Below are positions 16,182 through 20,940 of a DNA stretch of 64,000 bases, piece by piece. Origin of the DNA: Marisediminicola senii. Its GTDB lineage: Bacteria > Actinomycetota > Actinomycetes > Actinomycetales > Microbacteriaceae. The notes below the pieces were generated by a model. That model was not told where the DNA came from. It made no database searches and worked only from the letters and a program-made list of their open reading frames with translations. The position numbers were made by a program, and so were the translations under genes. Numbering within the stretch: the stretch's first letter is position 1; each line of letters opens with the position of its first letter. The DNA lies in the NCBI RefSeq assembly GCF_011057645.1, contig NZ_JAALGE010000008.1, forward strand, positions 1 through 64,000. The letters are read 5' to 3'.

Positions 16182-16226
16182 GGGTGGATGCTGCGCCGGG
16201 GCGACCCGTCGGCCTCGCGCCTCCTG

Positions 16227-16232
16227 CACACT
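16227..16232 (+). promoter_or_regulatory. Weak -10 box, leaderless promoter
   Basis: CACACT, 6 nt, then GTG at 16239. It deviates from TANNNT at position 1 but has the spacing seen elsewhere in this window. Confidence 0.3.
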
Positions 16233-16238
16233 GGGAAC

Positions 16239-17513
16239 GTGAGCAATCCCGACCGGAACGGCAGCGTGCACTCCGACGCGCCGCATTCCGCGAGCGACGC
16301 GACGACCGCGGCGCCCGCGACGTCTGCCGCGACGACCGCCGTGCCCGTCGACCCGCACCCGCGGGTTCCGAACTGGGTGAACGACGTCGTGCTCAGCGTG
16401 CTGATCCTCGGCGTGACGTTCGCGCCGGCGCCGGTGGCCGGCCTCAACCCGAGCGGCCCGCTGGAGACCGCGATCGTGCTGTCGCCGCTGCTGATCCTCC
16501 CGTGGCGCCGCCGCTGGCCCCTGCCCGTGCTCGCGGTGCTGCTCGGCCTGTTCGGCGTCGCAGCGTTGCTCGGCACCCTCTCCCCCGGCATCGGCATCGC
16601 GGTGGCCGCCGCGGTGTTCAACGTCACCAACCGGCTCCCCCGCCGCATCGGCCTCATCGCCACGGGTGTCGCCGTCGCCGCGGTGATCGTGCTTAGCCTG
16701 CCGGCGTCGCTCGGCGACGTGTTCGAGCCCCGGGTGGTGCAGTTCGGCCTGTTCGTGGCGCTCGCCGCGGCCGCGGGTGACGGCGGACGCTCCCGCCGCG
16801 ACTACATCGCCGCGATCACCGAGCGCGCCGAGCGCGCGGAACGCACCAGGGAAGACGAAGCCCGCCGCCGCGTCACCGAGGAACGCCTGCGCATCGCGCG
16901 GGACCTGCACGATGCGGTCGCGCACCAGATCGCGGTGATCAGCCTGAACGCCGGGGTCGCGTCATCCACCATCGACAGCCGCCCGGAGAGGGCGAAGGAG
17001 GCCCTCGCGACCATTCGCGGTGCCGCCCGCAGCGTGCTCGGCGAGATCGGCGACCTGCTCGGGGTGCTGAGGGCGGACGACGACGTGGATGCCGCGGCAC
17101 AGCCCCAGCCCGGACTCGACCGTCTCGACGAGCTCGTGGCCCAGTTCGCGAGTACCGGCCTCGACGTGCACACCCGCATCGACGGCGACCTGTCGCGCGT
17201 GACGGGAACGCCATCGCGGGTCGGCTACCGCGTGCTGCAGGAGGCCCTCACCAACGCACACAAGCACGGGGTCGAGCACCGCGCGCACGTGCTCGCCGAG
17301 GTCGACGACGCCACGCTCGCGCTGACGGTGACGAACCCGACCATGGGGGCGGGAAGTGTCACGGGCACCACCGACGACACGACGCGCTCGGGTCTCGGCC
17401 TGATCGGGCTGCGTGAGCGGGTGACCGCGGCGGGCGGCACCGTCGAGACCGGGCCCGCGGCCGCCGGCTGGAAGGTCGTGGCACGGATGCCGCTGCGGGA
17501 GGGCGCACGATGA
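16239..17513 (+). CDS. Sensor histidine kinase (NarX/DesK-like, HisKA_3)
   Basis: A 424-residue membrane kinase. About five membrane helices lie at residues 45-190. The HisKA_3 phospho-acceptor region is RIARDLHDAVAHQIAVISLN with the acceptor His in DLHDAVAH. The HATPase_c domain has an N-box in GYRVLQEALTNAHKHG and G-box GLGLIGLRERV. GTG at 16239 is preferred over an ATG 17 codons upstream because of the -10 spacing and because upstream residues look non-coding. Overlaps the response regulator by ATGA. It likely senses membrane stress and controls the divergent MacB-like transporter. Confidence 0.92.
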   Translation: MSNPDRNGSVHSDAPHSASDATTAAPATSAATTAVPVDPHPRVPNWVNDVVLSVLILGVTFAPAPVAGLNPSGPLETAIVLSPLLILPWRRRWPLPVLAVLLGLFGVAALLGTLSPGIGIAVAAAVFNVTNRLPRRIGLIATGVAVAAVIVLSLPASLGDVFEPRVVQFGLFVALAAAAGDGGRSRRDYIAAITERAERAERTREDEARRRVTEERLRIARDLHDAVAHQIAVISLNAGVASSTIDSRPERAKEALATIRGAARSVLGEIGDLLGVLRADDDVDAAAQPQPGLDRLDELVAQFASTGLDVHTRIDGDLSRVTGTPSRVGYRVLQEALTNAHKHGVEHRAHVLAEVDDATLALTVTNPTMGAGSVTGTTDDTTRSGLGLIGLRERVTAAGGTVETGPAAAGWKVVARMPLREGAR

Positions 17514-18175
17514 TCCGCGTTCTCGTGGTCGACGACCAGGCGCTGATCCGCCAGGCGGTCACCGACATCCTCGCCGGGCAGCCCGGCATCGACGTGGTGG
17601 GCGATGCGACGAACGGGCGCATGGCGGTCGCCCTAGCCGCGCAGCTGCGTCCCGACGTGATCGTGATGGACATCCGCATGCCCGAGCTCGACGGCATCGG
17701 CGCGACCGAGCGCATCTGCGGTGACCCGGCGCTCGCCGAGTCGCGCGTGCTCATCCTCACCACGTTCGAAGAAGACGAATACCTGGTCGCCGCACTGCGC
17801 GCCGGGGCGAGTGGGTTCGTGGGCAAGGGCGCGGAACCCGAGGAGATCGTGCAGGCCGTGCGCGCCGTGCACGCGGGCGACGCACTGCTGTCGCCCATCG
17901 CGACCCGCGCGCTCATCGACCGGTTCCTGAAGAGCGCCCCCGACGCCGACCCGACGACGGAACCCGCCCTGCAGCACCTCACCGACCGCGAGCGCGAGGT
18001 GCTGTTGCTCGTTGCCCGCGGCCGCTCCAACCAGGAGATCGCCGACGACCTGGTGATCTCCCCGCACACCGCGAAGACCCACGTGAACCGCATCATGACC
18101 AAGCTGCACGCGCACGACCGGGCGCAACTGGTGATCATCGCCTATGAATCGGGGCTGCTCACCCCCGGCAATTGA
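17510..18175 (+). CDS. NarL/LuxR-type response regulator
   Basis: A 221-residue regulator. The receiver domain has acidic pocket VVDDQ, phospho-acceptor Asp in VIVMDIRMPELDG, Thr in ILTTFEED and Lys in GFVGKGAEP. The LuxR HTH at the C-terminus reads LTDREREVLLLVARGRSNQE then TAKTHVNRIMTKL. Partner of the upstream kinase through a 4-bp overlap. The perfect palindrome at 16164-16181 is its probable target. Confidence 0.95.
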   Translation: MIRVLVVDDQALIRQAVTDILAGQPGIDVVGDATNGRMAVALAAQLRPDVIVMDIRMPELDGIGATERICGDPALAESRVLILTTFEEDEYLVAALRAGASGFVGKGAEPEEIVQAVRAVHAGDALLSPIATRALIDRFLKSAPDADPTTEPALQHLTDREREVLLLVARGRSNQEIADDLVISPHTAKTHVNRIMTKLHAHDRAQLVIIAYESGLLTPGN

Positions 18176-18265: not shown

Positions 18266-19168
18266 ATGACGATTCTGCACGGGGAACGCTCGCCCGAGAG
18301 CATGACCGCGAGCGCGGCCGAGAGCGCGGTCAGTGCAGCCGCGCCGAGTGCGCACGCGCGGAGCGTGCTGGCGCGCAACAACGTCTCGATCCTCGGCCCC
18401 GACGACGGCCCCGTCATGGTGCTCGTGCACGGATTCGGATGCGACCAGCACATGTACCGCCGCATCCTGCCGTTCTTCACCGACCGGTTTCGCGTCGTGC
18501 TCTTCGACCACGTCGGGTCGGGCGGCTCGGCGATGGACGCCTACGACCCGGTCGAGTACGCCACCGTCGACCGCTACGCCGCCGACCTGCTCGAGCTCTG
18601 CGACGCGCTCGGGCTGCGCGACATCACCCTCGTCGGCCACAGCGTCGGCGCGATGATGTCGATCAGCGCCGCGGTGCAACGCCCGGAACTGTTCAGCCGG
18701 ATGCTGCTGCTCGCCCCGTCCCCGTCGTACATCGACGACGACGCGGCCGGCTACACCGGCGGTTTCTCGTCCGACGACGTGCAGGAGCTGCTCGCCTCGC
18801 TCGACGACAACCACCTCGCCTGGGCCGCGGCCATGGCGCCGATGATCATGGGCGCGGGCAATTCCGCGGAGCTCGCCGGGGAACTCGAGACGAGCTTCTG
18901 CCGCGTCGACCCGCGCGTGATGCGCACCTTCGCCAGGGTGGCGTTCCTCTCGGACATGCGCGGACGGCTCGGTGAGGTCACGGTGCCGAGCCTCGTCGTG
19001 CAGTGCGCGAACGACCCGCTCGCCCCGGTGTCGGTCGGGCGGTACCTGCACGAGCGGCTGGCCGGCAGCGAACTCATCGTGCTCGACGCCGCCGGGCACC
19101 TGCCGCAGGTGAGCGCACCCGTCGCGACCGCCGAGGCGATGCTGCGCTACATCGACGCGACGCCGTGA
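18266..19168 (+). CDS. RsbQ/KAI2-like alpha/beta-hydrolase
   Basis: A 300-residue alpha/beta-hydrolase close to Bacillus RsbQ and the plant KAI2/D14 receptors. Nucleophile elbow GHSVGAMM (Ser), acid CANDPLAP (Asp) and base AAGHLPQVS (His) form the full triad; LVHGFGCDQHMY gives the oxyanion loop. RsbQ is known to enable a PAS-domain phosphatase, RsbP, probably by making or delivering a small ligand. Here the coupled next gene (GTGA overlap) encodes a PAS-GGDEF-EAL protein, so the hydrolase probably feeds that PAS domain. ATG 18266 follows AGGGGGA; residues 1-~35 are low-complexity. Confidence 0.88.
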   Translation: MTILHGERSPESMTASAAESAVSAAAPSAHARSVLARNNVSILGPDDGPVMVLVHGFGCDQHMYRRILPFFTDRFRVVLFDHVGSGGSAMDAYDPVEYATVDRYAADLLELCDALGLRDITLVGHSVGAMMSISAAVQRPELFSRMLLLAPSPSYIDDDAAGYTGGFSSDDVQELLASLDDNHLAWAAAMAPMIMGAGNSAELAGELETSFCRVDPRVMRTFARVAFLSDMRGRLGEVTVPSLVVQCANDPLAPVSVGRYLHERLAGSELIVLDAAGHLPQVSAPVATAEAMLRYIDATP

Positions 19169-20940
19169 CCGGCGGCGCCGGCGACGGGCCGGACTTCGAG
19201 GCGCTGTTTCGGGCGGCGCCGATCGGGTTCGTCGTCACGGCCCCCGATGGCCGCATCATCGACGTCAACGACGCGTTCGCCGCGTGGTCGGGCCTCGACC
19301 GCGATCGACTGCTCGGAACGCCGTTCCTTCGACTACTCGCGGTCGGCGACCGCATCCTGTTCTCCACCCACACCGCGCCATCGCTCGACCTCGCCGGGCG
19401 GGTCGCCGACGTCGCGGTGACCTTGCTCGGCCGCGACCGCGCACGGTTACCCGCGCTGCTCAGCGCATCCAGGATCGGCACGTCGACGGTCGGTCGATCG
19501 ACTCAGCTCGCGGGAGGGTCGATGGATGCGGCATCCACCCTGTACCTGCTGGCGGAGCGGCGAGAGCGATCCTTCGAGGAGGCGCAGCTGATCTCGGCGG
19601 TGCACCGGGCAGAACACGCGGATTCCCGGCGCAAGGAGGCGCAGGAGGGGCTCGCGCACCTCGAGAACCACGACCCGATGACCGGGCTGCTCAATCGGCA
19701 GGGGCTGCTCGCCGCGCTGGTGGACCACCTCTCCGGTGCGCGCCACTCCGACGACGTGACCGTGCACTGGATCGGGCTCGACCACTTTCGGGTCGTCAAT
19801 GACAGCCTCGGCAGGCCGGTAGGCGACCTCATCCTGGGCACGGTCGCCGACCGGCTGCGCGAGCGGTACGGCGACGGGGCAGTCGTCGCGAGGACCGGCG
19901 GGGACATGTTCGTCGTGGCATCCCGCAGCACGACGGGCTTCGCCGATGCGATCCTCGCCCTGCTCGCCGAGCCGATGATGGTCGACGACGTCGAGATCGT
20001 GATGTCGGCGAGCATCGGCATCGCGTCGGAGCGCCTCGCCGACCCGGTCGACCGTACCGCGGCGACGGCGGTGGCGGAGGAGCTCGCGCGCACGGCGTCG
20101 ACCGGCATGTACGAGGCGAAGGCCGCGGGGCGGGGCCGCTGGAAGCGCTCGTCTACGGCGCTCGACCAGGCCGCGGTGAGCGAGATCCGCCTGCTGGGCG
20201 AGATTCGCGCGGCGCTGGCGGGCGATCAGCTGCGGCTCGAGTTCCAGCCGCAGCTCGACCTGCGCACCGGGCGGGTGCACGGGGTCGAGGCGCTCCTGCG
20301 GTGGGACCACCCCGAGCGCGGCCCGGTGTCGCCCGCCGGGTTCATCGAGGTCGCCGAGAAATCGGGACTGATCGCGCAGCTCGGCACCTGGGTGTGCCGC
20401 ACCGCGATCGCGGAGGCGGTGGAGTGGGGCGCGGGTGCGCTGCCGCTGCAGGTGTCCGTCAACGTGTCGGCACGGCAGCTCGGGGATTCCGGGTTTGCGG
20501 GCGCCGTGGCATCCATGCTCACTGAATTCGCACTCGACCCCGCACGCCTGACCGTCGAGCTCACCGAGACCGGACTGGTGCTCGACACCGCCTCCGCCCG
20601 CGAGACGATGGCCGCGCTGCGGGCCATCGGGGTGCGGGTCTCGATCGACGACTTCGGCACCGGGCACGCCGGCTTCTCGTACCTGAAGGAATTCGAGATC
20701 GACGAGGTCAAGATCGACCGCTCGTTCGTCGACCGCCTCGACGCGACGCCCGAAGACACCGCAATCATCGTCAGCTGCATCGAGGTCGCGCACGCGCACG
20801 GGGCGACCGTCGTCGCGGAGGGCGTCGAGACGGCCGCGCAGCTCGCGCGCCTCACCGAGCTCGGCTGCGACGTCGCGCAGGGATTCCACTACGCGCGCCC
20901 GCTGCGGTCGGATGCCCTCGTGGAGTTCCTGGCGCGCTGA
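19165..20940 (+). CDS. PAS-GGDEF-EAL cyclic-di-GMP protein
   Basis: A 591-residue protein. The PAS domain (~5-125) contains APIGFVVTAPDGRIIDVNDA and GDRILFSTHTAPSLDLAG, a PAS type I associate with RsbP/RsbQ systems. A coiled linker (~130-165) leads to a GGDEF domain (~170-325) whose signature is GGDMF, so cyclase activity is doubtful. The EAL domain (~335-590) keeps EALLRW, NVSARQL, ELTETG, DDFGTG, VKIDRSF and VVAEGVET, so phosphodiesterase activity is likely. No membrane helix. Translationally coupled to the RsbQ-like hydrolase, which probably supplies its signal. Confidence 0.93.
   Translation: MTGGAGDGPDFEALFRAAPIGFVVTAPDGRIIDVNDAFAAWSGLDRDRLLGTPFLRLLAVGDRILFSTHTAPSLDLAGRVADVAVTLLGRDRARLPALLSASRIGTSTVGRSTQLAGGSMDAASTLYLLAERRERSFEEAQLISAVHRAEHADSRRKEAQEGLAHLENHDPMTGLLNRQGLLAALVDHLSGARHSDDVTVHWIGLDHFRVVNDSLGRPVGDLILGTVADRLRERYGDGAVVARTGGDMFVVASRSTTGFADAILALLAEPMMVDDVEIVMSASIGIASERLADPVDRTAATAVAEELARTASTGMYEAKAAGRGRWKRSSTALDQAAVSEIRLLGEIRAALAGDQLRLEFQPQLDLRTGRVHGVEALLRWDHPERGPVSPAGFIEVAEKSGLIAQLGTWVCRTAIAEAVEWGAGALPLQVSVNVSARQLGDSGFAGAVASMLTEFALDPARLTVELTETGLVLDTASARETMAALRAIGVRVSIDDFGTGHAGFSYLKEFEIDEVKIDRSFVDRLDATPEDTAIIVSCIEVAHAHGATVVAEGVETAAQLARLTELGCDVAQGFHYARPLRSDALVEFLAR

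Follow-up and report, generated by a model that had tools for sequence, protein, structure and literature searches.

Two overlapping genes of Marisediminicola senii raise the question of what an alpha/beta hydrolase has to do with cyclic di-GMP (c-di-GMP) signalling. They lie on the forward strand of the first 64,000 nucleotides of contig NZ_JAALGE010000008.1 (assembly GCF_011057645.1), the whole of which is called the window here. The first gene (18266..19168; ATG start, TGA stop, 300 amino acids) encodes a hydrolase of the RsbQ type, and the second (19165..20940; GTG start, TGA stop, 591 amino acids) a PAS-GGDEF-EAL protein. RsbQ-PAS modules, in which such a hydrolase is paired with a PAS-bearing partner, were defined by Nadezhdin, Brody and Price in 2011 with phosphatase, kinase and cyclase outputs (PMC3183031). 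We consider it likely that the two M. senii genes form an RsbQ-PAS bipartite sensor whose output is a c-di-GMP phosphodiesterase. This reading is built from sequence: the gene pair and its overlap, the hydrolase family, the RsbP-type PAS domain, the neighbourhood, the EAL residues and the GGDEF signature.

The gene pair and its hydrolase

An earlier note on this DNA had described a hydrolase with an intact Ser-Asp-His triad and the motif GHSVGA, whose stop overlaps the start of the next gene. Both open reading frames were found as claimed. Sequence and alignment locate the triad at Ser126 (the nucleophile, within GHSVGA; codon 18641-18643), Asp250 (19013-19015) and His278 (19097-19099), all on the forward strand, and the stop and start codons share the letters GTGA at 19165..19168, which we take as a sign of probable translational coupling of the hydrolase and its partner. 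Pfam recognized Abhydrolase_1 in the hydrolase and PAS, GGDEF (E 2.2e-24) and EAL (E 8.3e-74) domains in the partner.

In PDB, the hydrolase matches Bacillus subtilis RsbQ best by sequence (1wom, E 1.3e-72), then Olei00960 and plant D14/KAI2. Its AlphaFold2 model has a mean predicted local distance difference test (pLDDT) score of 90.2; the first ~28 amino acids are poorly predicted, and the true start may lie slightly downstream. Superposition of the matches already found by Foldseek, which is not an independent search, gave Z 42.5 and 1.2 A over 270 residues for RsbQ, a tied value for Olei00960 (42.7) and Z about 37-40 for D14/KAI2, with which the hydrolase shares both fold and triad. The note had also placed the descent of the plant KAI2/D14 receptors in this hydrolase branch. 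That idea was not borne out: in trees containing just two plant sequences, these form a separate long branch, and a KAI2-like origin of the hydrolase finds no support in the tree beyond the common superfamily. By sequence match, RsbQ is the closer of the two to the hydrolase. KAI2 and D14 signal via other partner proteins.

M. senii has a single RsbQ-type hydrolase, the next matches in its genome being far weaker (E 6.5e-13). The triad is kept in all of the 133 aligned homologues from the loci we collected except two. In L071, the contig ends before the Asp and His of the triad. In L065 (G122:C5:204105-204905), an RsbQ homologue adjoining a PAS-GGDEF gene, the nucleophile Ser is replaced by Cys (GHCVSG); this natural variant could test the need for catalysis.

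The hydrolase and its PAS partner are near-obligatory neighbours

Among 299 genomes of the same family, a search accepting E values up to 1e-35 found 56 places with an RsbQ-type hydrolase in 51 genomes. According to a profile of the RsbP-associated PAS type, a PAS domain is encoded directly downstream at 54 of these 56 places; of the two others, L071 ends at a contig edge and L070 is an orphan within the stretch of DNA retrieved. A possible start codon (ATG, GTG or TTG) shares letters with the hydrolase stop at 47 of the 56, as in M. senii (counting letters only). The reverse search, with the window PAS at E up to 1e-8, returned 48 places in 45 family genomes, 47 of which adjoin a hydrolase (the exception is in G036).

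A second sample of 396 genomes of the order, overlapping the first, yielded 55 hydrolase places, 53 with a PAS beside them, and 70 PAS places. The latter split sharply by score: with E up to 1.8e-11, 53 of 54 stand beside a hydrolase, and of the weaker ones (E up to 1e-7) none of 16 does. At the stricter cut of 1e-11, the counts are 52/53 and 1/17, the shifted place being that of G627 at 1.8e-11. The earlier note had named a partner commonly occurring without the hydrolase as the observation that would speak against coupling; partners standing alone are in fact rare (family, 1 of 48 PAS places; order, 1 of the 54 strong ones). The same separation by the profile bears out the note's assignment of the partner's N-terminus to the RsbP-associated PAS type. 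The hydrolase and its PAS partner are thus near-obligatory neighbours, and their coupling is real.

In the best 80 loci of at least 575 relatives from named genomes, a PAS stands beside the hydrolase in 73. This set shares members with the samples above (L073 = G241, L074 = G248, L075 is in G404), and L108 and L109 are one strain. The seven loci without a PAS (L078, L080, L081, L082, L085, L086 and L100) all belong to Arthrobacter or Pseudarthrobacter; they were inspected up to 5 kb on each side (less for L086 and L100), and 3-4 kb from the L086 hydrolase the opposite strand has a weak multi-PAS match. These seven hydrolases retain the triad and form one tree group beside the clade of the M. 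senii hydrolase. One locus labelled Vibrio cholerae strain 35D (L076) carries a hydrolase that groups with Arthrobacter, the label being probably wrong, and its partner is split over two frames.

Beyond the pair, little of the surroundings is shared. When 16-kb stretches of the distant members G241, G248 and G238 were compared with 19.5 kb of the window, nothing but the pair was common to them among the matches listed, antisense and other-frame shadows aside. A conserved third gene that would make or remove the ligand can accordingly be set aside for these three members. Other parts of the window weakly match L168 (45%, over a frame of 106 amino acids) and four loci that belong to a single genus (about 30%). 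The stretch 16188-18175 of the forward strand encodes a histidine-kinase-like protein and a response regulator of the NarL/LuxR type, both named from sequence, and ends 90 bases ahead of the hydrolase. This two-component pair was rejected as a part of the system, being absent around the relatives compared.

An EAL domain with intact residues beside a degenerate GGDEF domain

The GGDEF domain of the partner (19666..20136, forward strand, from Pfam and alignment) fails the diguanylate cyclase signature GG(D/E)EF: its own signature, at 19897..19911, reads GGDMF. The EAL domain (20200..20901, forward strand) has all the catalytic residues checked. In an alignment of nine EAL-type members, eight from the family and one from Arthrobacter, the nine residues of the metal-binding and catalytic set (E and R of EALxR, N, E, D, D, K, E and Q), whose roles we take to be those known from RocR, are identical in all nine. 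The GGDEF residues Asp206, Asn212 and Asp221, presumably metal- and guanine-binding as in PleD, are likewise kept in 9/9, and positions 3 and 5 alone are invariant in the signature. From its sequence, the GGDEF domain is thus predicted to have lost cyclase activity with its nucleotide-binding residues kept, as would be expected if a phosphodiesterase were regulated by a GTP-binding GGDEF domain.

Because the GGDEF domain is degenerate and the checked EAL residues are intact, the predicted output is c-di-GMP breakdown. The earlier note had proposed c-di-GMP turnover; c-di-GMP metabolism stands, and the degenerate cyclase signature narrows the turnover to what is most likely breakdown only. The M. 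senii genome holds five EAL and four GGDEF matches, the window protein included, in an inventory of these two domains; c-di-GMP should therefore be present to be removed. The window GGDEF domain is no closer to the two GGDEF-EAL proteins of M. senii than to the GGDEF-only partners described next.

Across the family, 44 partners are of the PAS-GGDEF type and eight, the window protein included, of the PAS-GGDEF-EAL type; L165, identified later, is a further GGDEF one. Pfam placed a GAF domain between PAS and GGDEF in L017, the one GGDEF-only partner analysed in this way, and the others, which are similar in length and align with it, are provisionally called the GAF-GGDEF form as well. The GGDEF signature is intact in 42 of the 44 GAF-GGDEF partners (exceptions L057 and L063). 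The eight EAL-type partners of the family have it in canonical form only in L040 and L041 (RVGGDEF), the others reading GGDMF, GDDEF (four) or GEDSF; these counts are not phylogenetically independent. In L077, a further Arthrobacter member, the Pfam EAL match ends before the end of the model.

Could the module instead raise or toggle c-di-GMP? A bifunctional protein or net diguanylate cyclase would require that GGDMF still permits synthesis, to which the retention of Asp247 and Phe249 in the signature, together with Asp206, Asn212 and Asp221, lends some colour, as do the canonical signatures of the two family relatives. The window protein, on the other side, has Met at signature position 4, and loss of the canonical signature in 6/8 family members goes with nine intact EAL residues in 9/9 aligned; we regard this alternative as unlikely.

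Another possibility is that the GGDEF-EAL part is a non-enzymatic receptor of c-di-GMP or GTP in the style of LapD or FimX, with the module switching protein contacts. Degenerate GGDEF and EAL domains act as receptors elsewhere, as described in a review (PMC7288161). LapD and FimX themselves match the window protein in sequence or structure, though less well than PA0575, MorA, DosP and PA0861 do. The EAL catalytic residues are lost in LapD and FimX; in the present proteins, unlike these two, every checked residue is present in 9/9, and a receptor role seems decidedly improbable. Enzymatic breakdown of c-di-GMP thus remains the output that we favour.

The PAS domain and its RsbQ-contact positions

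The PAS domain occupies residues ~10-131 of the partner (19192..19557, forward strand), as delimited by Pfam, the PAS profile and the structural model. To compare it with B. subtilis RsbP, residue numbers were mapped by a constant offset of 10, without alignment to RsbP, so that Leu65 (codon 19357..19359, forward strand) takes the position of RsbP F55. With respect to the nine residues that mark the published RsbP-PAS class, L48 and P86 are identical, Q53 is replaced by Arg, C56 by Phe and Y59 by His, all of which fit the types of the class by our assignment, and E72 is conservatively replaced by Asp; position 62 is Pro. The PAS domain does not end in a DIT motif, its last strand being followed by ERRERSFEEAQ. 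For one such PAS, no entry named RsbP was found in PDB among the best 60 of 66 matches.

Position 55 is Leu in 10/10 EAL-type partners, 6/44 GGDEF types, 0/59 phosphatase types and 0/5 kinase types, being mostly aromatic outside the EAL-type class. Position 59 is His in 64/64 phosphatase and kinase types and Arg in 38/44 GGDEF types and 7/10 EAL types. These counts leave out L073, L074, L109, L129, L131, L076 and L001 as duplicate or incomplete, and L093 is unclassified. From the residue patterns at 55 and 59, the PAS contact surface appears altered in both c-di-GMP forms with the hydrolase retained.

Pairwise distances among hydrolases and among PAS domains are correlated (r 0.779, n=52 pairs; 0/2000 permutations as high), and this holds by output form (EAL 0.911, GGDEF 0.791, phosphatase 0.658). 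With the output domain controlled, the GGDEF form gives a hydrolase-PAS partial r of 0.741 against 0.003 for hydrolase-output (n=44). The other two forms, reported below, make the result mixed, and co-variation beyond shared ancestry has partial support only.

Several observations weigh against the proposed sensor and its output. In the EAL form, the hydrolase-PAS partial r values (0.525 and 0.452) fall below those for hydrolase-output (0.613 and 0.741; n=10), and in the phosphatase form, the partial r is 0.100 (88/1000 permutations as high) against 0.627 for hydrolase-output (n=59). At three of the nine class positions, the residue in the window PAS does not fit: Ile stands for C10, Val for L13 and Leu for F55. 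In B. subtilis, the RsbP change F55A was reported to inhibit RsbQ binding and abolish signalling (PMC3183031). L040 and L041, two of the eight family members, could be bifunctional given their canonical GGDEF. Genome G404 (L204, G404:C2:119000-129000) has an EAL-type partner without an adjoining hydrolase, and also carries a complete pair elsewhere. Finally, the pair is patchy, having been found in only 1/6 genomes of its own genus.

Replacement of the contact residue F55 also bears on the view that the hydrolase is a metabolic enzyme that is co-expressed with its neighbour but forms no physical sensor complex with it; the PAS-less RsbQ-like hydrolases at 7/80 named loci, at one family place (L070) and at two order places point the same way. 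That view must contend with a special PAS subtype that recurs beside the hydrolase in four output classes, with the sharp split of PAS scores and with the RsbQ-RsbP contact shown in B. subtilis (PMC3183031), and we hold it to be very unlikely. The bipartite sensor accounts for the pairing in our preferred reading.

Predicted structure and proposed mechanism

The AlphaFold2 model of the partner (mean pLDDT 78.4; predicted template modelling score 0.47) shows the PAS fold, a helix and then the GGDEF and EAL domains. The helix, at the PAS-GGDEF junction, is modelled as continuous over 32 residues (137-168; 19573..19668, forward strand; pLDDT about 52-86) and is likely a signal lever. Domain order and overall architecture resemble DosP and RbdA/PA0861 in Foldseek comparisons, with an overall TM score <0.5 by query length and a much better fit of single domains. 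DosP is an oxygen-sensing phosphodiesterase by its NCBIfam name; we know of no RsbQ hydrolase partner for either protein.

Docking of the hydrolase, sensing of a ligand, regulation by GTP, phosphodiesterase activity and the way in which the output responds to the signal are inferred along the following lines. The hydrolase would bind, and perhaps cleave, a small molecule. By analogy with RsbQ, it would dock on the PAS domain and linker of a dimeric partner and so control the enzyme part, the 32-residue helix relaying the state of the complex to the GGDEF and EAL domains. Synthesis of c-di-GMP by the GGDEF domain is most likely lost; this domain probably binds GTP and modulates the EAL domain, which would then cleave c-di-GMP. 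Parts of this scheme have published counterparts: RsbQ was reported to bind the PAS domain of RsbP in B. subtilis (PMC3183031); an AlphaFold2 2:2 model from 2025 places RsbQ between PAS domains and linkers, its authors arguing for exchangeable outputs (PMC12143880); and an EAL domain activated by GTP via a degenerate GGDEF is described for Caulobacter CC3396 in a review (PMC7288161).

History of the module in the family

A tree of 69 hydrolases, picked by us from larger sets, places the eight EAL-type hydrolases of the family in one group (support 100/98). This group falls with a kinase- and GGDEF-coupled group from another family of the order (98/91), with EAL-type hydrolases of Arthrobacter and its kin (96/88) and with the orphan Arthrobacter hydrolases (100/99), and the assemblage adjoins the phosphatase-coupled hydrolases of Streptomyces and relatives (97/93). 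The GGDEF-coupled hydrolases of the family stand apart from the EAL group, themselves in two parts. A single origin of all c-di-GMP-coupled hydrolases of the family was rejected when the 27 rows were forced together (p-AU 0.00016). Forcing all 12 EAL-type hydrolases into one group was not rejected (p 0.13); in the unconstrained tree, kinase- and GGDEF-coupled hydrolases sit between two EAL groups, and the first hydrolase tree had brought 11 EAL-type rows together (81). The constrained groups were chosen after that first tree was seen. The PAS tree also recovers the EAL group of the family (99) and unites the EAL-type PAS domains, ten in all (90), its deeper order being unsettled.

The simplest reading is that a single sensor became coupled to c-di-GMP on two occasions, with opposite outputs. 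It is not proof, because gain and loss cannot be told apart by counting changes on a tree. The GAF-GGDEF form, which drives an intact cyclase, is the commoner one in the family, and genome G241 and that of Subtercola boreus (G248) carry both forms. In G248, the GGDEF form is intact (L046). G241 shows the reverse of the usual pattern, its GGDEF-only partner (L063) being degenerate and its GGDEF-EAL partner (L040) bearing the canonical RVGGDEF.

We tentatively extend this reading: the same hydrolase-PAS sensor may have been wired independently to both c-di-GMP arms within one family, the EAL form arriving on the branch tied to phosphatases and kinases. Since genomes such as that of Subtercola boreus (G248) carry both forms, these could act there as a push-pull pair answering related signals, insulated by changes at just those PAS positions on which hydrolase binding depends (Leu for F55 in one form, mainly Arg for Y59 in the other). 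Possible as it is, we would not put this scenario above a conjecture.

The same actinobacterial order also contains RsbQ-PAS modules with a histidine kinase output, namely L200, L201 and L202 (in G391, G565 and G583). Their HisKA and HATPase_c domains were assigned by Pfam for L200 and by our own profile for L201 and L202.

Comparison with known systems

The two-gene sensor is a further example of a published module and not a new kind of system, since the module, the adjacency rule and both GGDEF and GGDEF-EAL outputs are already described in the 2011 paper (PMC3183031). That paper reports an added EAL domain in 3/45 cases, such as Psychromonas ingrahamii A1SX34, a PAS-output coiled-coil in 36/45 cases, with EAL-bearing members among the exceptions, and kinase outputs in Gram negatives. 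As in its GGDEF-EAL cases, the M. senii locus has an RsbQ homologue immediately upstream, an N-terminal RsbP-like PAS domain and a GGDEF-EAL output; it differs from A1SX34 in that its PAS domain runs straight into GGDEF with no second PAS, and from the published RsbQ-PAS class in the Leu at position 55, and its degenerate GGDEF signature may be a further difference.

With B. subtilis RsbQ/RsbP, the locus shares the hydrolase fold, the triad, a downstream PAS partner and a helical linker; the output is a predicted c-di-GMP phosphodiesterase, not a PPM phosphatase for sigma-B. Sigma-B control via such a phosphatase was also considered for M. senii and rejected, no SpoIIE match reaching the Pfam cut-off of 25 in the genome (best match 22.1 bits; RsbV and RsbW were not searched). 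The fusion of a degenerate GGDEF to an EAL domain recalls CC3396, likened here from the review passage and not by sequence, and that passage mentions no hydrolase partner for CC3396 (PMC7288161).

What the present analysis adds is the combination of a degenerate GGDEF with an intact EAL domain, the two branches coupled to c-di-GMP in one family, the kinase outputs in this actinobacterial order and the orphan hydrolases of Arthrobacter. We found none of these additions, the degenerate-GGDEF EAL output included, in the open-licence literature, which is weak evidence of absence.

Biological significance

The 2011 paper called the cue of RsbQ-PAS modules mysterious (PMC3183031), and plant KAI2 is described as having a natural ligand that is yet to be discovered (PMC10504578). 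A soluble, easily assayed phosphodiesterase output, together with many cognate natural pairs, offers a practical readout for ligand hunting, and the different outputs found on closely related hydrolases are practical for output swapping. Our analysis suggests that, within one order, the output behind the RsbQ-PAS sensor changed often, among phosphatase, kinase, cyclase and phosphodiesterase, which fits the published idea of an exchangeable toolkit (PMC12143880).

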